Assembly (NCBI GenBank): GCA_020435205.1
Contig: JAGQZY010000025.1
Coordinates: 1-33,191 of the forward strand
Origin: Bdellovibrionales bacterium
GTDB lineage: Bacteria; Bdellovibrionota; Bdellovibrionia; Bdellovibrionales; JAGQZY01
Direction of reading: 5' to 3'
DNA: 33,191 nt
The position numbers and the translations under genes were made by a program. Numbering within the stretch: the first letter of the stretch is position 1; each line of letters begins with the position of its first letter. Under the pieces are notes generated by a model that saw nothing but the letters and a program-made list of their open reading frames with translations, made no database searches and was not told the DNA's origin. Below are positions 23,660-33,191 of this stretch, piece by piece.

Positions 23660-25189
23660 TTATGGATGGGGCGCAATCCCCAGTAGCCTATTCTTTAAAT
23701 TTTTACCCTGCAGTTGATAGGTCATAAAATAAAAAAGCTGAACTTCATCAACATAAGGGCTAATACTAATTGTTGTTTTGGCTCGGGCAAAATTATCTAC
23801 AGCAACACCTTCTGCTACTACATCCATCTGCCAAAACCGTTGAAACAAAGAAAAGTCACTAAGGACTTGATCAAATTCTTCACGAGTTAACTGATTTAAA
23901 AAATGGCGACCGCGCACCTGGATGGCTAAACGTACAGGGTAAGTGAGCAGTAACATCGCTTTGTAAGCCTCAACCGAGGATGGCCCCTCTTCAAGTAGGC
24001 TAATTTGCAAATTGGACTGCAAATCAATACGAAATAAACTGAATGGACTCATCATGGATTCAAGCCAAGATAGATCCGGATCTAAAGAGGATATTGGCAA
24101 GGCCACGGATTGCAGGCGAGACATTTGAGTGGAAAGAATGGACATCTGTTTTTTTACGAGTAGCCATTGGTTAATACCGATCCCTTCCACATAGGGGTCA
24201 CCGGGTTCACTCAGGTAAGTGGTCACCATGGTTTCCATAAAGCGATGAATGTCATCTGGATCCACTTCTCCAGAAAAATAATTTTGAGAAATATAATCGG
24301 CAAGATAATCAAATCCTGTCAGGGGCAAAACACCCAATTCCTCCATCCAAGGATCCACCATTTCAGCAAGCTCATCAAAGTATGCAAAAAGTCGATGACC
24401 AGAAAAAAGAACTTCCGGTAAGCTTGTTCCTACCTCCACTTGAAATTTTTTATATTGGTATATTGAGTCCAACATAAATTCTGTGGTTTTCTTAAATATC
24501 AAAGTCTCAGAGTTACCGTTGGCAAACCAAACCAGTGCGCCCATCAGAGAGGTATCAAAAGCTTCGTTCGAAATATTATGATACGATTTATTTTGGTAAT
24601 TAAGATTTACAAAGGCTTTAAAATCAAAGTTATTAATGAGATGAGGATAAGATTGTAGCAAGCGGGCCACTTGTGGTTTCAAGTTTTGGTAAGCCCGTTT
24701 TAAATTCTGGCTGGAGGTAGCCCTATCTGTCACGAGCAGACTTGATAAATGTTCCCGGGAGGATTGTAAAAATATTTGCCAGGCAGAAATCATCGTGCGC
24801 AAGGATCGCAATTCTTGTGCTGTGAGTTTTTGCGGATCCCCACCCACAAGCCAAACTTTGAGGTTCAACCACAAACTGAGATGCTCAAGACTGAGCGGAT
24901 CTTTTTGTAAAAAATTTTGATTGAGCCAACTCAAAAAATTTTCTGAGGACCCTAGCGAAGGTTGCTCTTGCAAGCTCGCTTCAGCCAGCGCCAAACCCTG
25001 AGCCACGCATTGACTGCTCTGCAGAGCATGATCTTGGTTCTCGGCCTTCAGAAAATAGGCAAACTGTTCATCGAAAAATCGAAAAAAACAGTCCGACTTG
25101 TTGCCGACGGCAGAGTTTGGATCAGTGGGCTGCGAGGACGAACATCCCAACAACCAACCTATGATAAATACACCTAAAAACAGCCTCAG
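23660..25189 (-). CDS. Large lipoprotein of unknown function, probably starting at CTG
   Basis: Reading from a TTG at 25153 gives only MLGC before the mature part, too short for a signal. Extending 12 codons in frame to CTG 25189 gives MRLFLGVFIIGWLLGC, a textbook lipoprotein signal with lipobox LLGC and Cys16, preceded by AAGGGGG (complement of 25195-25201) with 5-base spacing. No ATG, GTG or TTG lies in that interval. The 509-residue product is otherwise soluble and mostly helical, with many Gln, Ser, Leu and Phe and no recognised domain or active-site motif. It sits between the SGNH hydrolase and the alpha/beta hydrolase genes on the same strand. Confidence 0.75.
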   Translation of the reverse strand: MRLFLGVFIIGWLLGCSSSQPTDPNSAVGNKSDCFFRFFDEQFAYFLKAENQDHALQSSQCVAQGLALAEASLQEQPSLGSSENFLSWLNQNFLQKDPLSLEHLSLWLNLKVWLVGGDPQKLTAQELRSLRTMISAWQIFLQSSREHLSSLLVTDRATSSQNLKRAYQNLKPQVARLLQSYPHLINNFDFKAFVNLNYQNKSYHNISNEAFDTSLMGALVWFANGNSETLIFKKTTEFMLDSIYQYKKFQVEVGTSLPEVLFSGHRLFAYFDELAEMVDPWMEELGVLPLTGFDYLADYISQNYFSGEVDPDDIHRFMETMVTTYLSEPGDPYVEGIGINQWLLVKKQMSILSTQMSRLQSVALPISSLDPDLSWLESMMSPFSLFRIDLQSNLQISLLEEGPSSVEAYKAMLLLTYPVRLAIQVRGRHFLNQLTREEFDQVLSDFSLFQRFWQMDVVAEGVAVDNFARAKTTISISPYVDEVQLFYFMTYQLQGKNLKNRLLGIAPHP

Positions 25190-25304
25190 AAAAACCCCCT
25201 TCTCTGAAGTGTTGAGACGATAATATTGATATAGGAGGAGAATTAAGGCTTTTCCTTAAGCCTGTAATTTCTATAGGGACCATTGCAGAAAAATCGACTT
25301 CAAC

Positions 25305-26075
25305 TCAAAGAGAAAGGCTCTCCGCGACTTTTTCGATCACCCATTCCGGGGCATCTAGAGCCAACTCATGTCCCGCCGAAGGGTGGGTATGAATGGGGAT
25401 TTGCCAATGTTGGGCTAACTTTTTAGAACACCTCACATCGACCATGCGGTCAGACTCCGAAGCAAAAATGACCATGGGGCACAGAGGGCGTTGCTTCGGC
25501 AAACGAAAGGCTGCTGCCGCAATCAATTGGCGAAGGACATTGGCTGGCTTTGGCGAACGCTTTTTAGCGATCTCCTCCCACTGCGAGAGCACTCGCCCTT
25601 GCGCCTCTGCATTGTTACTCACCATCTGTAACACGGCCTGTTCCCTGGCTCGTGGGGATTTCTGCGCCATAATTTTAACCATGGATTTCCAAGCCGAAAG
25701 CATCAGTCGATGATGAATCGGCGAGAGACTCGCCACGCTGACATTCATTAGAATAATTTTACTAAACTTTTGCGGATAGCGATGGGCTAATTCAATGGCC
25801 ACCATAGATCCTAATGAAACTGAAAGAAGGACCAAAGGTGCCCTTGGATTTCGGGGCAGTTGCTCAATCTCGGCCATGATAAACTCGGCCATCTCCCCGA
25901 CACTGAGAGGGCTAGAGATTTTATGAAAGCGGCCCATACCCGGCAAATCAAGAGCATAGGCACTTTGACAAAAATCTTGGGACTCTACGCGATCAACGAA
26001 GTTTCCCCAATGCCCAGCTTCCCGTGCGAGCCCTCGCAACAGAACAAAATCAATTTGTTCCATCATCGCCACCAT
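25305..26075 (-). CDS. Alpha/beta hydrolase, cytoplasmic (BioH/MenH-like fold)
   Basis: A 256-residue alpha/beta-hydrolase without signal peptide. The nucleophile elbow is SVSLG with Ser87, so the first glycine of GxSxG is replaced by serine; acid Asp209 is in ASESDRMVD and catalytic His236 in SAGHELALDAP. An N-terminal LRGLAREAGHWGNF segment supplies the oxyanion region. Its start overlaps the end of the carboxypeptidase gene by 26 bases, so it is the last gene of the mutM set. The substrate is unknown; an esterase or a pimeloyl/acyl-ester hydrolase is possible. Confidence 0.8.
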   Translation of the reverse strand: MVAMMEQIDFVLLRGLAREAGHWGNFVDRVESQDFCQSAYALDLPGMGRFHKISSPLSVGEMAEFIMAEIEQLPRNPRAPLVLLSVSLGSMVAIELAHRYPQKFSKIILMNVSVASLSPIHHRLMLSAWKSMVKIMAQKSPRAREQAVLQMVSNNAEAQGRVLSQWEEIAKKRSPKPANVLRQLIAAAAFRLPKQRPLCPMVIFASESDRMVDVRCSKKLAQHWQIPIHTHPSAGHELALDAPEWVIEKVAESLSL

Positions 26076-27093
26076 ACCAAAGGTTCAAGGCTTCGAATCG
26101 CCAAATTTGCCGTTTGTCCTCGGGAAGATCGATCCAATCTCTAGAGAGTACGGCTCGATGCAAAAAGTCCACAAAGGTTTTATGATCTCTCAACACTCGT
26201 GCTCTTCTATGGGGCAGGATAGGGTTCCAAACTCCTAGCAAATCAAAAATCTGTTTGGGGTTTTTCCTGACCCATTTCCAGGAACCCAACTCCAAAGTCA
26301 GCGGCAAAAAGAATTGATCTTTTTTATCGCGATAATGCATGTCAAACAGGTAGTCCCATAAATCTCCATGGGTCGTGTATTGAATGGACTGAGGCTCAAC
26401 GGAGTAGAGATGGTGAGGGTATGCATTGTTTAGCAATTCACGAAAAGCATAAGCTTCCACAAAATAAGGAAAGGGCTTTTTTGTTCGCGCATAAGGAAAC
26501 CACAACCTATCGGTTGCACCAAAACCAGAGTGAACATCAAGACAAATCGCGGTTTTTGCAGGGAACACTCTTTCTTCGATAAAATCGCACAGCGCTTTAT
26601 TTTCCTTTTCTAGGCCATCAGCAAGGGCTCCTCGGTAAAATGGAATTTTGGGAGATATGCGATGACCACCATATAAAAAACGAGTAGCTTCTTCAGAGTA
26701 CACCGGAGCGTTTCGCATGAGATCTACGTTGTTCCCATTGGAGCGGGAGCGACGGAACATACCCACCGGATTGAGCAGTGGCACAAAAATCAGTCGAGAT
26801 TCATTAAGTCTCGCCTTATGAGTGTGATCCCAAGCGAGAAGCTCGATCACTGTCCGCAAGGTTGATAAACACACTAAAGAACCAATGCGCTCCAATCCGT
26901 GCACACCACCCACCATCATAAAACAAGGAGAGGTAGGGTCTTCGCTTCCAATTTCTATAGAGTAAACCGGAAAAATATGATCATCGTGGCTGACTTCGGT
27001 CAGCACTCGCACCCGGGCTCGATTGCTCACTTTTTCAATCAAGGATTCTAATTCAATCAGTTCAGGAAGACGCTTTTCCAGCACCTTGTACAC
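26050..27093 (-). CDS. M14-family zinc carboxypeptidase
   Basis: A 347-residue metallopeptidase of the M14 clan with no signal peptide. Zinc ligands are His65 and Glu68 in GGVHGLERIG and His188 in LDVHSGFG; the general base is Glu268 in LTLELGS. NGNNVDLMRN (119-128) corresponds to the NxxGVDLNRN substrate-carboxylate-binding motif. The catalytic set is complete. Cytoplasmic M14 members trim peptidoglycan peptides or deglutamylate proteins; which applies cannot be read from sequence. It lies 32 bases after mutM and overlaps the next gene, so co-transcription is likely. Confidence 0.87.
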   Translation of the reverse strand: MYKVLEKRLPELIELESLIEKVSNRARVRVLTEVSHDDHIFPVYSIEIGSEDPTSPCFMMVGGVHGLERIGSLVCLSTLRTVIELLAWDHTHKARLNESRLIFVPLLNPVGMFRRSRSNGNNVDLMRNAPVYSEEATRFLYGGHRISPKIPFYRGALADGLEKENKALCDFIEERVFPAKTAICLDVHSGFGATDRLWFPYARTKKPFPYFVEAYAFRELLNNAYPHHLYSVEPQSIQYTTHGDLWDYLFDMHYRDKKDQFFLPLTLELGSWKWVRKNPKQIFDLLGVWNPILPHRRARVLRDHKTFVDFLHRAVLSRDWIDLPEDKRQIWRFEALNLWYGGDDGTN

Positions 27094-27125
27094 AGCAGAA
27101 ACTCCTCAGCAGACTAGCTTTTATT

Positions 27126-27950
27126 TTAAGACAAAGGTTGGCATTGAGGACACCAAAAACTGTTCCGCCCGACTATCACTTGACTTTCGATAGTCGTATT
27201 ACAGAGTGGGCAAGGCTCTCCAGCTCGACCATAGACGAAAAGAAGGTTTTGGAAGTAACCCGAAGACCCGCCTGCCTGACGAAAGTCACTGATGGTCGTA
27301 CCCCCGCAAGCAATAGCATCCCACAGTGTGTGCGCAATCGCTTCGCGTAAGATTTTAATTTCTGAATTCTGCAAATGGGATCCTGAACGCAAAGGATGGA
27401 TGCCCGCCAAATAGAGACTCTCACTGGCATAAATATTTCCCACCCCGACAACAATCCCTTGATTCATAATTAAACTTTTGATGGAGGACGATCGTCCTTT
27501 TAATTTTTCTTTGAAATAGGGGTAGGAAAAAGCGTCTTCCTCAAGGGGATCTGGTCCCAAATGAGAAAAGCGAGGGTCACCATCGAAATTCAATTCACTA
27601 ATGTAGTCAAACTGCCCGAAGCGCCTGGGATCGCGATAAATCAATTGCCGACCATCAGAAAGTGTTAAAACTACATGATCGTGGGGATCAGAATTCCCGT
27701 CACCTAAACGCCAACTCCCTGTCATACCCAAATGGGAGAGCAAATAGGCCTTTTCCAGGCGAAACAACAGATACTTAGCTCTTCTTTCCACCCCAAGAAT
27801 TTTTTGACCGCAACTTTTCAATATGGCTGACCGACGAAAAGGATAACGCAGACCTTTGTGACCCAACTTTACCTTCACTATGGTCACTGGTTTTGGCAAA
27901 ATGTCGTTAAGACCACGGCGAACCGTTTCGACTTCAGGCAGTTCTGGCAT
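27126..27950 (-). CDS. mutM: Formamidopyrimidine-DNA glycosylase (Fpg/MutM)
   Basis: Bifunctional DNA glycosylase/AP lyase removing 8-oxoguanine and FaPy lesions. The 274-residue protein has every landmark: N-terminal PELPEVE with Pro2 as Schiff-base nucleophile and Glu3, Lys59 in RRAKYLL, the H2TH region with NQGIVVGVGNIYASE, and a C-terminal zinc finger with CPLC and CPQC pairs. The length is standard. It is the first gene of the set mutM - carboxypeptidase - hydrolase. Only about 50 bases separate its start from the repeats flanking the mobile element, so its promoter region borders or lies within the insertion junction. Confidence 0.96.
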   Translation of the reverse strand: MPELPEVETVRRGLNDILPKPVTIVKVKLGHKGLRYPFRRSAILKSCGQKILGVERRAKYLLFRLEKAYLLSHLGMTGSWRLGDGNSDPHDHVVLTLSDGRQLIYRDPRRFGQFDYISELNFDGDPRFSHLGPDPLEEDAFSYPYFKEKLKGRSSSIKSLIMNQGIVVGVGNIYASESLYLAGIHPLRSGSHLQNSEIKILREAIAHTLWDAIACGGTTISDFRQAGGSSGYFQNLLFVYGRAGEPCPLCNTTIESQVIVGRNSFWCPQCQPLS

Positions 27951-28001
27951 TATCGACCTAACCTATTAATTTTATTAACTTTTTTTAATGCACATCTTGC
28001 T

Positions 28002-28021
28002 AGGTCAGCACAGGTCAGCAC
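28002..28021. repeat. Tandem 10-bp direct repeat, candidate attachment/integrase-binding site
   Basis: AGGTCAGCAC occurs twice in immediate tandem, between the integrase stop codon (28027) and mutM (start 27950). Tyrosine-recombinase elements typically have the integrase gene next to their attachment end, with short direct repeats serving as core or arm sites. The other end of the element is outside the window, so the matching att copy cannot be confirmed. Confidence 0.5.
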
Positions 28022-28026
28022 ATTTA

Positions 28027-29274
28027 TCATTTTACCCTCCTCAATTGCACTACATTACTTCTCATTTTACCCTTTTCAGAACTACTTTCAGACCCATTCC
28101 CACTAAGACCTAGAACTTCACTTATATGCTCAACAATTCGAGTTGAAGTTTCCTTCTGCACCTCACTATCAATCTTAGAATAGTGATCTGCTAGCTTTAA
28201 GTCTTTATGTCCGGTCATAGCAATAACTGAATCTAGTCCCATTCCTCCTACCCTTCTCGCTAAAGTAGCCATTCCATGTCTCAAACAGTGGGTTCCTGTA
28301 TAAGGAATCCCAGATTTCGTCTGGGCCTGTCTGTAATTACTTTGGATAGTGCAATAGTTCAATGGACGACCTTTCACATGGAATAAAAAATCGCAGTTAG
28401 GCGCTTTTAAAGCCAGACGCCTTTCTATAATTTTTCTTAGCCACGGATGAAGAAAAACAGTTCTGGGTTCCTTATTTTTAGGATATGGCTTCAAGTATTG
28501 AAACATTTTACTTGGACCACCCCATACGCAGGAATCTTTGATAACTAATTTATCTTGATCCAGATAAATGTTTGATATTTGGATTCCTGCTGTTTCGCCA
28601 ATTCTTCCTGCACAAAAATATTGTGTCATTGCTAAATCTGAATATAGCTCAGGAAGATATGAGAAAAACTCAAACGCAGCTTCAACAGGAATTTTCTTAT
28701 CTTCGGGATTTTTTGGTGTATCACGAAAAAAAGACATTTTCTTGTGTCTTCTGCGAATTGGCGACGGAATTAAAGCTGACTCCGCTTCAAACTCATCTTC
28801 GGCTTTATACCAATTGAAAATTGTCGTAAATAAATTTAACTCATTATTTAGGTTACACCTACCCGCATAACCTCTTCCTAATGAGTCATATTCATCTGAC
28901 TCAAACCACTTCTTCTTGCGCTCAATCCAATCATTGATTACAGAAGAAGTAATTTCTTCCATGTGATAGTCTTTTAAATCTGAAAGATGTTTCCATCGCC
29001 TTTCCCAAATGTCTTGGGTGCTTTTCTCTAGGCCAGGAAAGTGTAAATGCTTCATAGCTTCCCACACTTCTCCTAAAGTCGATGTAGTGGCCTCAACTCT
29101 CTTAACTTTTTGACCGTCAAATGTATTTTTCCAATGTTGAGCTTTTCTCAAAGAATCAAAAGTCTCTGAAAACTGTTTTCCTTTAATTCTTTTTGCTACT
29201 AAATACTTCCCAGTGATTAGATTTTTTCTAATTCCTGGGTGCTTCGGTACATTCACATACTTTTTTTTACTCAT
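28027..29274 (-). CDS. int: Tyrosine recombinase (phage/ICE-type integrase)
   Basis: A 415-residue site-specific recombinase. The catalytic set is visible: Arg224 in FCAGRIGETAG, His329 and Arg332 in THCLRHG, His356 in TGHKDL and nucleophile Tyr365 in ADHYSKI. The N-terminal ~60 residues (LITGKYLVAKRIKGKQFSETFDSLRKA) look like an arm-DNA-binding domain and residues about 65-165 like a SAM-like core-binding domain. ATG 29274 is chosen for AAGGAG 9 bases upstream; the TTG at 29295 is too close to that site. It follows the excisionase-like gene with a 1-base gap, so they are coupled, and its 3' end abuts the putative attachment repeats. Confidence 0.93.
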   Translation of the reverse strand: MSKKKYVNVPKHPGIRKNLITGKYLVAKRIKGKQFSETFDSLRKAQHWKNTFDGQKVKRVEATTSTLGEVWEAMKHLHFPGLEKSTQDIWERRWKHLSDLKDYHMEEITSSVINDWIERKKKWFESDEYDSLGRGYAGRCNLNNELNLFTTIFNWYKAEDEFEAESALIPSPIRRRHKKMSFFRDTPKNPEDKKIPVEAAFEFFSYLPELYSDLAMTQYFCAGRIGETAGIQISNIYLDQDKLVIKDSCVWGGPSKMFQYLKPYPKNKEPRTVFLHPWLRKIIERRLALKAPNCDFLFHVKGRPLNYCTIQSNYRQAQTKSGIPYTGTHCLRHGMATLARRVGGMGLDSVIAMTGHKDLKLADHYSKIDSEVQKETSTRIVEHISEVLGLSGNGSESSSEKGKMRSNVVQLRRVK

Positions 29275-29275
29275 T

Positions 29276-29503
29276 TCATAAATCTCCTTCTTCAATCCAG
29301 TTTTGGATTTGGCAAGGTATGAAATAGAGCTTTCCCCGTTTCTTAATATAGGGAATTAAATTTTTAGATGCTAAATTATATAGAGTTCCAACAGCATACC
29401 CTGTATAACTTGATACATCTTTTATATTCCATATTCGATTATCAAAGAGCCTAGAATCCTTCTTTTTTTCAACGAAGACTCCTCCTGAGTCTTTATTATT
29501 CAT
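29276..29503 (-). CDS. Excisionase-like helix-turn-helix protein (HTH_17 type)
   Basis: A 75-residue basic protein with a MerR/excisionase-type winged HTH: WNIKDVSSYTGYAVGTLYNLASKN in part, followed by a wing and IPYIKKRGKLYFIPCQIQNWIEEG. This pattern is typical of small DNA-binding proteins paired with tyrosine integrases that control recombination direction. ATG 29503 is preferred because GAGGAG lies 7 bases before it. It sits directly upstream of and coupled to the integrase. It could act as recombination directionality factor or as a repressor; the sequence does not decide. Confidence 0.8.
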   Translation of the reverse strand: MNNKDSGGVFVEKKKDSRLFDNRIWNIKDVSSYTGYAVGTLYNLASKNLIPYIKKRGKLYFIPCQIQNWIEEGDL

Positions 29504-29533
29504 ATCATTTCTCCTCAAATTTTCAAAAATAAA

Positions 29534-30232
29534 TTAACTTACTCCAAGCACTTTTTCTAAATGCTCAAGCTCTTCTGAATATTTAAGAATCCTATAAGTT
29601 GCTGTATAATCACATAATGCCATTCTAGCAGCTTCAGAAACATTCTTAGCTGCACCAGAACTTCTCAAATAAATAACGTCTGCTCGATAATTTGGCCCCA
29701 TCAGAGCCCTGAGCTTTAACCAGCCATTCCTTTTAAGAATGGCTTTCAAAGTTAGAAGTTTTTTGTCGCTAGGAGCTAAAAACTTTCTGACACTTGCTCC
29801 AAACTCCAGAAAAGCTTCTTCCGCTCCATGATGCTTTACAAAACTAGGACGACTATGTAATCGAGGGAGTTTTTGAATCTTCATACCTTTTTTATAAAGC
29901 TTCTTTCTAACCATCTTGAAACGATGCTCACCTTTAGCAACAAGCTTGTCGGCCACAACAATAAGCAAAATTAACTCATCTTGACTAAGCAAACCTGTCT
30001 TTGCCATTTTTACGAGTCTTTCCACATGAACTAATGGAGCAATCCTCAACATAAGTAAATCATAGAGCATAAAAAACACATCATTTTCATTCCAGTAATA
30101 TTTTAACGACTTCAAAATAACTAATTCAGGATCAGATTCCTCAATCGTTATTTTTCCATCGTAGTAATAAGCTGCTCCCAAGGACGTCAGCCCTGGAATG
30201 ACTTCAACCCAATTTCTAACGCTCAAAACCAC
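29534..30232 (-). CDS. Partner protein of the nucleotidyltransferase, with C-terminal HTH-like region
   Basis: A 232-residue protein of no recognised named family. The N-terminal half is hydrophobic/helical without clear TM segments; a basic stretch (KMVRKKLYKKGMKIQKLPRLHSRPS) lies near the middle. The C-terminal part reads KLRALMGPNYRADVIYLRSSGAAKNVSEAARMALCDYTATYRILKYSEELEHLEKVLG when followed along 170-230 in pieces, similar to winged-helix regulators (RADV...VSEAARMAL..Y.ATYRIL). It overlaps the nucleotidyltransferase gene by 17 bases. The start is uncertain: GTG 30232, or TTG 30226 with better spacing to AGAGG. The two-gene arrangement is like nucleotidyltransferase-based toxin-antitoxin/AbiE modules; which partner is toxin is unknown. 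Confidence 0.65.
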   Translation of the reverse strand: MVLSVRNWVEVIPGLTSLGAAYYYDGKITIEESDPELVILKSLKYYWNENDVFFMLYDLLMLRIAPLVHVERLVKMAKTGLLSQDELILLIVVADKLVAKGEHRFKMVRKKLYKKGMKIQKLPRLHSRPSFVKHHGAEEAFLEFGASVRKFLAPSDKKLLTLKAILKRNGWLKLRALMGPNYRADVIYLRSSGAAKNVSEAARMALCDYTATYRILKYSEELEHLEKVLGVS

Positions 30233-30779
30233 GACCTCTATTTTTTATCAATTTCCCAATTTCTAATTTTACGTCTTTAATGACTTCTTCCGCTATATGA
30301 CCTCTTGAAAGAATCCACTGAGAGGCATGCTCTATTTCCTCTGTACTGGGTTTAAGCGCCAATAAATCTTGCTGGTCAGTCATTAACTGCCTATCACAAA
30401 AGGCATCAAGTTTTGTGCAAATTAAATCAGTTCTTCCTAGAGAGAAAATATTCAGTGAAGTTCCTTTATAGACCTCAACCACTCTTGCTTCCCATCCAAG
30501 AGGAATATCTTTCAAAAAAACTTTACCTCCATCGCTATTAAGCCACCGAGTTTTTAATCCAAACTTTTGACCCACATGTGCAACAACCTCAATCATTTCT
30601 TTGTCAAATAAAGGCTTCACAACATCCACATCTTCTGTCATTCGATCTTTACCTACAAAACCCATTGAAATGAGAGCCGCGCTTCCAAAAATAAACAGCT
30701 TTTCTTGACGACAACGCTCCTCCATTATTTGATCTAATTCTTTAAAAACTTTTAAAATATTCTTTTCATCAATCATCAT
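30216..30779 (-). CDS. MNT/AbiEii-like nucleotidyltransferase
   Basis: A 187-residue polymerase-beta-fold nucleotidyltransferase. The signature is FGSAALISMG (Gly32-Ser33) followed by RMTEDVDVV with Asp50 and Asp52 as metal-binding residues, the usual G-S...D-x-D pattern of MNT and AbiEii proteins. The rest (LKTRW, VEVYKGTSLNIFSLGRTDLICTKLDAFCDR) matches DUF6036-type stand-alone nucleotidyltransferases, in which a K-L-x-A-x-x-x-R segment is conserved. It is shorter than AbiEii (about 300 residues). GGAGG about 10 bases before ATG 30779 fixes the start, and a palindrome lies just upstream of that. It likely modifies RNA or a partner protein; the target is unknown. Confidence 0.78.
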   Translation of the reverse strand: MMIDEKNILKVFKELDQIMEERCRQEKLFIFGSAALISMGFVGKDRMTEDVDVVKPLFDKEMIEVVAHVGQKFGLKTRWLNSDGGKVFLKDIPLGWEARVVEVYKGTSLNIFSLGRTDLICTKLDAFCDRQLMTDQQDLLALKPSTEEIEHASQWILSRGHIAEEVIKDVKLEIGKLIKNRGRGFER

Positions 30780-30797
30780 AATAATTATACCTCCATA

Positions 30798-30812
30798 TTG
30801 TTATTATAACAA
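30798..30812 (-). promoter_or_regulatory. 15-bp palindrome overlapping a -10-like TATAAT, operator candidate
   Basis: TTGTTATTATAACAA is a perfect inverted repeat (7-bp arms, 1-base centre) just upstream of the Shine-Dalgarno of the nucleotidyltransferase gene. On the minus strand it contains TATAAT, a consensus -10 hexamer. No good -35 box is seen. Autoregulated toxin-antitoxin operons often have such an operator over the promoter. Confidence 0.5.
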
Positions 30813-30849
30813 TGTTTTATATTCATACACACATAACTATTTGTTTTTA

Positions 30850-31014
30850 TTAACCTATTACTTTCTTTAAGATGTGACCCAGCCACATCAGAAAGCCTAT
30901 GGCGGCCTCTTCTTGCTCCTCACACTCCTCGGCCACCTCTTCAAGCTCCTCAGAGGATTCTTCAAGAGAACCAATAGCCCTCATTAATATGTCTGCTTTT
31001 TCTTCTTCACTCAT
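30850..31014 (-). CDS. Small acidic protein with hydrophobic C-terminus
   Basis: A 54-residue product, very Glu-rich (EESSEELEEVAEECEEQEE), followed by AAIGFLMWLGHILKKVIG, a short amphipathic or membrane-associating helix with a Lys pair. ATG 31014 is preferred, with AGGTAGG upstream; the longer in-frame reading overlaps the preceding gene. It begins 7 bases after that gene ends, so it looks like the last gene of the relaxase operon. No homology recognised. Confidence 0.55.
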   Translation of the reverse strand: MSEEEKADILMRAIGSLEESSEELEEVAEECEEQEEAAIGFLMWLGHILKKVIG

Positions 31015-31021
31015 CCCGAAC

Positions 31022-31312
31022 CTACCTTTCGCCTTTAATGGCATTTAGAACTTTTTCGTTTGAATCAATTAGCTTATCAAGGGAGAGCATCAGTCTTTGC
31101 TCTCTTTCCTTAGCGTATGTGAACTTATTAATCAGTTCTTTTAACTTTTCATCCTCTGATCTTTCATTTTTAATCGCTATTAGAACTTTGTTTTGATTTC
31201 TTGTAACTTTGCTAATGTGGCGTATTTTTTTACAAACCATTGCACAACCAACAAGTCCACTAAAAGCAATCAAAAGAAAGAATATATTAAAAAACATAAG
31301 AGACTTTGTCAT
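31022..31312 (-). CDS. Small single-TM coiled-coil protein
   Basis: A 96-residue protein with an N-terminal membrane segment (MFFNIFFLLIAFSGLVGC) and a charged helical remainder of coiled-coil type (KVLIAIKNERSEDEKLKELINKF and on). VGC at the end of the hydrophobic stretch could be a lipobox (LVGC), so a lipoprotein is an alternative to a TM anchor. AAGGAGG 6 bases before ATG fixes the start. It overlaps the preceding gene by 26 bases. No family recognised; small membrane proteins near relaxases may act in mobilization or entry exclusion, which is speculative here. Confidence 0.62.
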   Translation of the reverse strand: MTKSLMFFNIFFLLIAFSGLVGCAMVCKKIRHISKVTRNQNKVLIAIKNERSEDEKLKELINKFTYAKEREQRLMLSLDKLIDSNEKVLNAIKGER

Positions 31313-31721
31313 TTTGGCCTCCTTGTTTTGTATTTTTACTTGAATGCTGCTTTACCTTGACTGACTTGGACTTTTTCTTTCTTTGCGTTTCAAGGATAGG
31401 AACTATTTCTTTTTTTAAATACGAATTAAAATCAAGTGTACCTCCACCGTTAAGATACTCTTGATAATTCTCTTTAATCTCAAGCATTACAAAATCTTTG
31501 CCAGATACTCTTTTGGATTTCAGCACTTCAATTAAGTGAACGGGAAACTCCATTAGAGCTACTGAAATAATCTCTCTTTCGCTATAGCTCGGCTTAAAGC
31601 TTCCATCATTAATTTTCTTTCTTATATCTTTTAATTTCCTATCAGCCTCAACAGAAATTGCTTTTCCATTAATGTAACTATTCTTAGCTTCCTTGCTATT
31701 AGTATTATTTTGGTCATCCAT
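31287..31721 (-). CDS. Hypothetical protein downstream of the relaxase
   Basis: A 144-residue hydrophilic, basic protein: N-terminal Asn/Lys-rich stretch, a central helical portion (SYSEREIISVALMEFPVHLIEVLKSKRVSGKDFVMLEIKENYQEYL) and a Lys/Ser-rich tail (RKKKSKSVKVKQHSSKNTKQ). TAGGAGG 4 bases before ATG 31721 gives a firm start. It follows the relaxase stop by 32 bases. Its charge and place would suit a relaxosome accessory protein, but no MobC or other accessory motif is recognised. Confidence 0.6.
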   Translation of the reverse strand: MDDQNNTNSKEAKNSYINGKAISVEADRKLKDIRKKINDGSFKPSYSEREIISVALMEFPVHLIEVLKSKRVSGKDFVMLEIKENYQEYLNGGGTLDFNSYLKKEIVPILETQRKKKSKSVKVKQHSSKNTKQGGQNDKVSYVF

Positions 31722-31753: not shown

Positions 31754-33191
31754 TTACCTAGATAAACCTCGTTCTTTAGTTAAGTAACTACGTTTAATAA
31801 ACTCGTCTAATTCACTAATACTCATTAACTGACCTTGAGACTTAGCTTTGTCATTTTTAAAGCTTAAAATTTCATCAAAAACATTTTTATTTGGATCTCT
31901 TACAAGTCTCACTTTCTTAAAGCTTGAAAGAAAGTCTTCTCTATCCTGAAGCCAATCCCTTAAAGGAGAAAGAGGCACTATTACGTTGTAGGGAATCTCT
32001 TTAGCCTTTAAGATAGAATCCATTGTCTCAGACCTTAAAAATGTTTCAGCAGAGTCAAAAAGAATTAATTCGTTACTTGTTCCTTTCTTATTAACAAAAT
32101 TGTCAGAAAGACCTTTAGTGCGCCTTGTGAACCATGAATTATTAGGGTTTCTATAATAAGTAAGGCTTCTCCTCCTAGTTGAAACAGGAAACAACTTGAA
32201 TCTATTCTTGTCATAAAATGTCGCTTGTCCAGTTTTTGCAAGCTCTGTTAAAAGCTCTCGATTAAACTTATCTATTTTGGAAAGACTGTAAATCGTCTTC
32301 TTTTTCTCCATTGATTCATTTTTTTCAGGAACGTAATAAGCTCTAAAACTAGGACTAGGGACTTCCAGGTCTTCAGCTATTTTCTTATACCCTTCATTCT
32401 TAGCACCATCACCAATGGCCGTTAAGAAATCACTTCTCCTATAGTTAGCAATAAACTCTATAAGGCTACCTTGCGTGTTATTCTTTTCATTTTCCCAAAC
32501 TCCATCCATCAGCCTAATATATTCACGACCTGAAATTCTCTTGTACCCATCTTTACTATCAAGAATTGTGATATGATGCTCACCACAATACTTTTCTATA
32601 CTTTGCTTTCTTAGACTGTCCAAGTCTTTTAAATCAATTAAACTACTTTTTAGTTTTGATTCTGGCACAATGTAATTTTCTTCTCCTCTAGGAAAATTAT
32701 GAAATTTTCTATAATCTTTACTTCTAATGTCACTCAATTCTCTATAACCAAGAGAGTGAAGTTTCCAATCGTTAGCTTTAAATCTTTCGGCAAGCTTTTC
32801 AAAACCGTAGCGAGCACCAAGTTTTGATGCTTTACGCCCCCTAGACATACCTGGGTAAACATAGGAAATTGTAGTGCCGCGAATCTTAGTCTTTATTCCA
32901 AAGCCTCGATTCAAATAAGCCGAATATTCATCAAAACTTGTTGAAATGGACATTGCAAATTTAAGTTTTTCTTTTAAGTCATTAAAGCGAGAGAAGCCAA
33001 TACGGTTTTGAATACCTTTTACTTGATCTGACATTTTATCCCATCTCTCTCTTGAGTGATTAACAATTACAGATAGATTATTTTCCCTTGCAAGTCTGTC
33101 ATTCTCATATCTCAAAAAATAAAGATGCTCTTTTTTATTACCTATTCTCTTTCCATTTTCGCTATGAACGGGGTTGAGCATAATATGATTA
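31754..33191 (-). CDS. Relaxase/mobilization nuclease, C-terminal portion with primase-like region (N-terminus outside window)
   Basis: The frame is open to the right edge, so this is the 3' part of a longer gene, about 478 residues visible. The first visible residues NHIMLNPVHSENGKRIGNKKE, read in two pieces, match the stretch around the last His of the HxH(x)H metal motif of VirD2/MobA-type relaxases and the following N-x-V-H-x-x-T/N-G-K segment; RYENDRLARENNLSV continues this pattern. At about 200-260 the text EHHITILDSKDGYKRISGREY and WENEKNNTQGSLIEFIANYR resemble a zinc-less CHC2-like primase fold, and ELILFDSAETFLRSET a degenerate Toprim. The catalytic Tyr would be outside. It heads an AT-rich run of genes with the integrase, indicating a mobilizable element. 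Confidence 0.78.
   Translation of the reverse strand, partial: NHIMLNPVHSENGKRIGNKKEHLYFLRYENDRLARENNLSVIVNHSRERWDKMSDQVKGIQNRIGFSRFNDLKEKLKFAMSISTSFDEYSAYLNRGFGIKTKIRGTTISYVYPGMSRGRKASKLGARYGFEKLAERFKANDWKLHSLGYRELSDIRSKDYRKFHNFPRGEENYIVPESKLKSSLIDLKDLDSLRKQSIEKYCGEHHITILDSKDGYKRISGREYIRLMDGVWENEKNNTQGSLIEFIANYRRSDFLTAIGDGAKNEGYKKIAEDLEVPSPSFRAYYVPEKNESMEKKKTIYSLSKIDKFNRELLTELAKTGQATFYDKNRFKLFPVSTRRRSLTYYRNPNNSWFTRRTKGLSDNFVNKKGTSNELILFDSAETFLRSETMDSILKAKEIPYNVIVPLSPLRDWLQDREDFLSSFKKVRLVRDPNKNVFDEILSFKNDKAKSQGQLMSISELDEFIKRSYLTKERGLSR

Follow-up and report, generated by a model that had tools for sequence, protein, structure and literature searches.

A gene pair behind a promoter palindrome

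The window analysed here, a 33,191-nucleotide stretch of a Bdellovibrionales contig, carries two intact, overlapping genes on the minus strand with a palindrome in front of them, as seen in the sequence and its list of open reading frames. The first gene (30216–30779, minus strand) encodes a nucleotidyltransferase (NTase) of 187 residues, the predicted toxin, and is preceded by the Shine–Dalgarno sequence GGAGG (30790–30794, minus strand). The second encodes a partner protein, the predicted antitoxin and autorepressor, whose open reading frame (29534–30232) gives 232 residues from its first GTG (30232) and overlaps the NTase gene by 17 bases. A preliminary description of this DNA had reported two frames of these lengths with this overlap, and they are present as it claimed. 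We consider a TTG at 30226 to be the likelier start of the partner gene (29534–30226, minus strand; 230 residues, 11-base overlap), because a Shine–Dalgarno-like AGAGG within the 3′ end of the NTase gene (30239–30235, minus strand) lies 8 nt from it and because the alignment with a 57%-identical relative begins at window residue 3, which is residue 1 of the relative. Across 37 pairs of the family, overlaps were mostly 4 to 20 bases long, and 11 bases, together with 8, was the commonest length.

The perfect palindrome that had been noticed in front of the pair is ATTGTTATtATAACAAT (30797–30813), which reads as ATTGTTAT-T-ATAACAAT (8+1+8). It occurs once in the window and covers an extended −10 element, TGTTATAAT (minus strand, 30811–30803). 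Taken singly, this palindrome was marginal against shuffled sequence (P of about 0.1). Palindromes with a one-base centre recur across the family: 18 of the 37 pairs have one upstream, compared with 30 of 200 upstream control regions taken from the same loci (Fisher P = 2 × 10−5), a comparison that is approximate because the controls were open reading frames of at least 150 codons, some of which are not true genes. The count of 18 also exceeded that in every one of 200 shuffles (maximum 13). A −10-like TATAAT lies within recurring cores, for instance TATTGTATaATACAATA. Enrichment was also seen with other spacings (such as 3), so the exact geometry is not fixed. The simplest reading is that the palindrome is a candidate operator for autorepression.

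The pair lies in a mobile element

Directly downstream of the pair lies a gene for an excisionase-like HTH_17 protein of 80 residues (29276–29518, minus strand; PF12728, E = 3.9 × 10−6), followed by a tyrosine integrase gene (28027–29295, minus strand; PF00589, E = 9.9 × 10−12) and then mutM. The best matches of the host genes in the window are in the genus of genome G118; in G118 itself, the host genes are the same up to mutM and the element is absent from the syntenic locus. This absence, together with the adjoining excisionase-like and integrase genes, confirms that the pair sits inside a mobile element, as had been proposed. No tRNA gene that might mark an integration site was found in the window. 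Two copies of the direct repeat AGGTCAGCAC lie between the integrase gene and mutM (28000–28025) and are possibly part of an attachment site. A 475-residue protein at 31754–33191, which the contig end truncates close to its start, had no Pfam match; its HIMLNP...RKASKLGARYGF stretch recalls a mobilisation relaxase, and the carrier is possibly mobilisable.

The two nearest partners, in loci L126 (57%) and L149 (55%), each have a short gene and then an integrase behind them. All three closest partners, that of the window included, therefore adjoin a tyrosine integrase or integrase-like gene, confirmed by Pfam in L126 and by inspection only in L149. The window integrase found no match in L126 at E = 10−3, so these two integrases differ. 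Many other pairs sit in ordinary chromosome. A contig of 7,872 bases (G318:C380, locus L148), binned with a genome from a different family, shares 99.96% identity with window positions 23786–31657, host genes included. We rejected a horizontal copy: that genome has its own second mutM, so the contig is probably mis-binned.

The first gene encodes a DUF6036 nucleotidyltransferase

The NTase matched PF19502 (DUF6036) with 39 bits (curated cut-off 23.6; E = 9.5 × 10−10). The window protein scored 12.6 bits against AbiEii (PF08843), below the cut-off of 22.5, and its relatives matched PADLOC AbiEii profiles weakly and repeatedly (best 8 × 10−6). It had been described as an MNT-like enzyme. The assignment to NTases stands, with FGSAAL..RMTEDVDVV as its signature; the term MNT is imprecise, as the protein belongs to DUF6036 and is nearer to AbiEii and MenT than to the small MNT antitoxin of HEPN-MNT.

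We located motif I at G32-S33, motif II at R46/D50/D52 and motif III at K123/R130. Residues G32, R46, D50, D52, K123 and R130 match G49, R63, D67, D69, K173 and R180 of AbiEii, and mutation of any of these AbiEii residues abolishes toxicity (PMC3985639). Within each of motifs II and III, the spacing equals that of AbiEii, and in motif I the NTase has G32-S33 where AbiEii has G49-G50. The KLDAFCDR stretch also fits motif III of COG4849, KLxAaxxR. In addition, D135 and D138 are invariant (DQQD) and resemble motif IV, a +DxxD pentad, the residue before them being T in the window NTase; AbiEii has a similar D..D stretch.

The AlphaFold2 (AF2) model of the NTase was confident (pLDDT 92.9). Its best structural alignments were with MenT4 (Z 8.8, r.m.s.d. 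4.0 Å over 161 residues), MenT1 (Z 8.4, r.m.s.d. 4.4 Å over 160 residues) and, level with MenT, ANT(2'') (Z 8.1–8.4). Such matches are middling (best Foldseek E 2.5 × 10−3; Z 8–9), and because the MenT and ANT(2'') values are tied, the fold alone picks neither a toxin nor an antibiotic-modifying enzyme. Single-sequence and profile searches of the PDB gave no significant match for the NTase, and a PHROGs search with the NTases gave none better than E = 0.01.

The partner is a helical protein with a C-terminal helix-turn-helix

The partner had no match in Pfam, NCBIfam or PADLOC. Structure prediction, one of the checks suggested in the preliminary description, returned a confident AF2 model (pLDDT 89.7, pTM 0.88) that is helical throughout, with a helical N-terminal region and a C-terminal end that reads as a helix-turn-helix (HTH; residues 182–220). 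Weak matches of Pfam HTH profiles to relatives of the partner agree with this model, which supports the HTH-like C terminus suspected earlier. A G-x-N-x-R-A-D motif opens the HTH, and its R183 and D185 are among the residues that do not vary in the family alignment. Sequence searches of the PDB, single or profile, gave no significant match, and the fold search gave none at E < 0.001, with no solved structure fitting the whole protein. The top VIA-align Z was 4.4, for an Arp2/3 subunit, and we did not take it as meaningful.

The partner had been said to be neither a recognised AbiEi nor a recognised HEPN protein, and our results agree. No AbiEi profile matched it, its HTH is C-terminal and its gene lies downstream of the NTase gene. 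The R-x4-6-H motif of HEPN proteins is not conserved, the best aligned R..H column pair being present in 6 of 18 members, which speaks against a HEPN reading of the partner. The partner thus appears to represent a family without earlier description, a predicted antitoxin in which the recognised fold is limited to the HTH.

The pair is conserved and co-inherited

Partner relatives were found in 31 of 291 Bdellovibrionota genomes by single-sequence search and in 59 by profile search. Of 77 partner matches, 54 sit directly downstream of a listed DUF6036 match. We inspected 18 of the other places and found 7 more with an adjoining NTase, full or partial; the window's own pair, which the Pfam genome search had missed, was added to these. 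About 62 of the 77 therefore lie just downstream of an NTase, usually overlapping it. Distances among NTases correlate with those among partners (Mantel r = 0.71, 33 pairs; the best of 5,000 permutations reached about 0.23–0.24), which shows strong co-divergence. Lack of conserved pairing had been named as a result that would speak against a module; what we found instead is an overlapping pair that is conserved and inherited together, as is generic for toxin–antitoxin genes.

Some partners are unpaired, and one sub-family is mostly solitary (for example, L101); this distantly related, partner-like family (alignment A6: L098, L100, L101 and L102) has a relative, L123, that is still paired with an NTase. 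A contig scan with one partner sub-family found five loci only, titled Deltaproteobacteria, Bdellovibrionales and Oligoflexia. Plasmid and phage collections searched with the partner gave no match, nor did plasmids searched with one NTase or phages searched with another, and a viral-contig scan gave a single match of 13 residues, too short to use.

The distribution of the two genes points to the NTase as toxin

In five loci (L094, L097, L100, L102 and L104), the partner is kept beside an NTase remnant; among these, the L104 partner runs off the contig end, and the matches at L100 and for one L102 fragment are weak. All 20 inspected NTases that lack this partner have another adjoining partner gene, which belongs to a different downstream family, encodes an upstream HTH protein or is a distant relative of the partner. 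Because the enzyme was not seen alone and its companion can stand alone, this pattern points to the NTase as toxin and the partner as antitoxin and autoregulator. In L099, a canonical AbiEii is followed by a partner-like gene; this partner-like copy is truncated and lacks the HTH.

Likeness to known systems

Our pair shares with AbiEi/AbiEii (type IV; DUF1814/PF08843 and COG5340) a bicistronic layout, a pol-β-type NTase, an HTH-bearing partner, promoter inverted repeats and carriage on mobile elements. It differs in that the NTase is a DUF6036 protein encoded by the first gene, whereas AbiEi has an N-terminal winged HTH and an AbiEi C-terminal domain and is encoded upstream. Toxin-first gene order is the less usual one. 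Since the NTase stays below the AbiEii Pfam threshold and no AbiEi partner was found, we do not class the module as AbiE. Among NTase toxins of the AbiE/MenAT kind are enzymes that modify tRNA and thereby block translation, and the antitoxins that go with such toxins show a striking variety. The toxins of the Mycobacterium tuberculosis modules MenT1–MenA1 and MenT4–MenA4 are among the best structural matches of the NTase, and in MenAT one toxin fold is served by unrelated antitoxins (PMC10435456). The partner here is of another family: MenA1 has 68 residues and no evident DNA-binding domain, and MenA3 and MenA4 belong to COG5340. HEPN-MNT (type VII) has an NTase and a helical partner in one operon as well; the window partner differs in having an HTH and no HEPN motif, the solitary-gene pattern suggests opposite roles, and the module is not filed there.

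Proposed mechanism and alternatives

With a probability of about 0.72, we interpret the pair as an AbiE/MenAT-type toxin–antitoxin module in reversed gene order, with a predicted NTase toxin and a predicted HTH antitoxin, carried here by a mobile element. The preliminary description had proposed either a toxin–antitoxin or an abortive-infection pair, and it is the toxin–antitoxin type that conservation, co-divergence, gene overlap, palindromes and AbiEii motifs back. We propose that the DUF6036 NTase would, through its DxD site, add nucleotides to RNA and stop growth; by analogy with MenT toxins, its likeliest target would be the 3′ end of tRNA. The HTH partner, probably made by translational coupling through the overlap, would bind and inhibit the NTase and act as a repressor of the operon at the palindrome, which spans the extended −10. 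Loss of the element or a failure of inhibition, for example during infection, would let the toxin act. Its release would stabilise the element and might give abortive infection.

The last step shades into a second explanation, in which the pair is an infection-triggered phage defence (abortive infection) in its own right. This overlaps with the toxin–antitoxin reading: the parts are the same and the purpose is another. We consider it somewhat unlikely: AbiE sets a precedent (PMC3985639) and one neighbourhood has both AbiE and a YhcG nuclease, yet the partner had no convincing PADLOC match, the enzyme matches AbiEii weakly, and other pairs showed no enrichment beside defence genes.

In a third explanation, the NTase is no toxin but a regulated enzyme of the ANT(2'')/LnuA type that modifies an antibiotic or a metabolite and has a dedicated HTH regulator, which would suit both the promoter palindrome and the level ANT(2'') alignment. 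We find this improbable given the strong co-divergence of the two proteins, the conserved AbiEii motif III residues and the other-type partner beside every inspected NTase that lacks this one; a resistance or metabolic context was not seen. No better are the chances of HEPN-MNT-like logic, with the partner as toxin and the NTase as an antitoxin that AMPylates it: the all-helical N-terminal region of the partner and a pair of an NTase with an NTase-substrate-binding (HEPN-like) protein near such pairs in L125 would fit, but the partner lacks a conserved R-x4-6-H and carries an HTH, and the AbiEii motif III of the NTase goes beyond a minimal MNT domain. The partner also outlasts decayed NTases, where a toxin partner would be expected to show the reverse.

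Other DUF6036 pairs

Other DUF6036 pairs in the phylum combine the same NTase family with one adjoining partner, encoded downstream (alignment A4) or as an upstream HTH protein (A5). Neither family gave a convincing profile match to the partner described here (A5 weak, probability 21%). At a little short of even odds, DUF6036 may join COG2253 and COG4849 as another large family of NTase toxins, with members in bacteria and haloarchaea. In Bdellovibrionota it would have at least three partner families that show no convincing relationship in sequence, including this undescribed antitoxin with a C-terminal HTH, whose N-terminal inhibitory region resembles no solved fold found, and a truncated relative of which can follow a canonical AbiEii (L099). 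What is new here is the partner family and the association of DUF6036 NTases with several partner families; the literature searched contained no mention of DUF6036 or PF19502. A widespread NTase family with its own antitoxin families in a phylum of predatory bacteria would widen the diversity of NTase toxin–antitoxin systems, would annotate many pairs now called hypothetical proteins and would offer a ready test of one enzyme fold under the control of unrelated antitoxins.

In loci L105–L109 and L111, the gene upstream of the DUF6036 NTase encodes an HTH protein, and these proteins, a putative further antitoxin family, have an LGAPL...RVLP domain in common. A 20-kb stretch (L125; G129:C26:144000–163900) contains three NTase–partner pairs, an AbiE pair, an NTase/HEPN-like pair, a YhcG nuclease and an integrase, and looks like an island rich in toxin–antitoxin modules. 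DUF6036 is also present in the control genomes of Lactococcus lactis and Haloferax volcanii, and on a Haladaptatus plasmid a DUF6036-like gene region comes after a helix-turn-helix gene.
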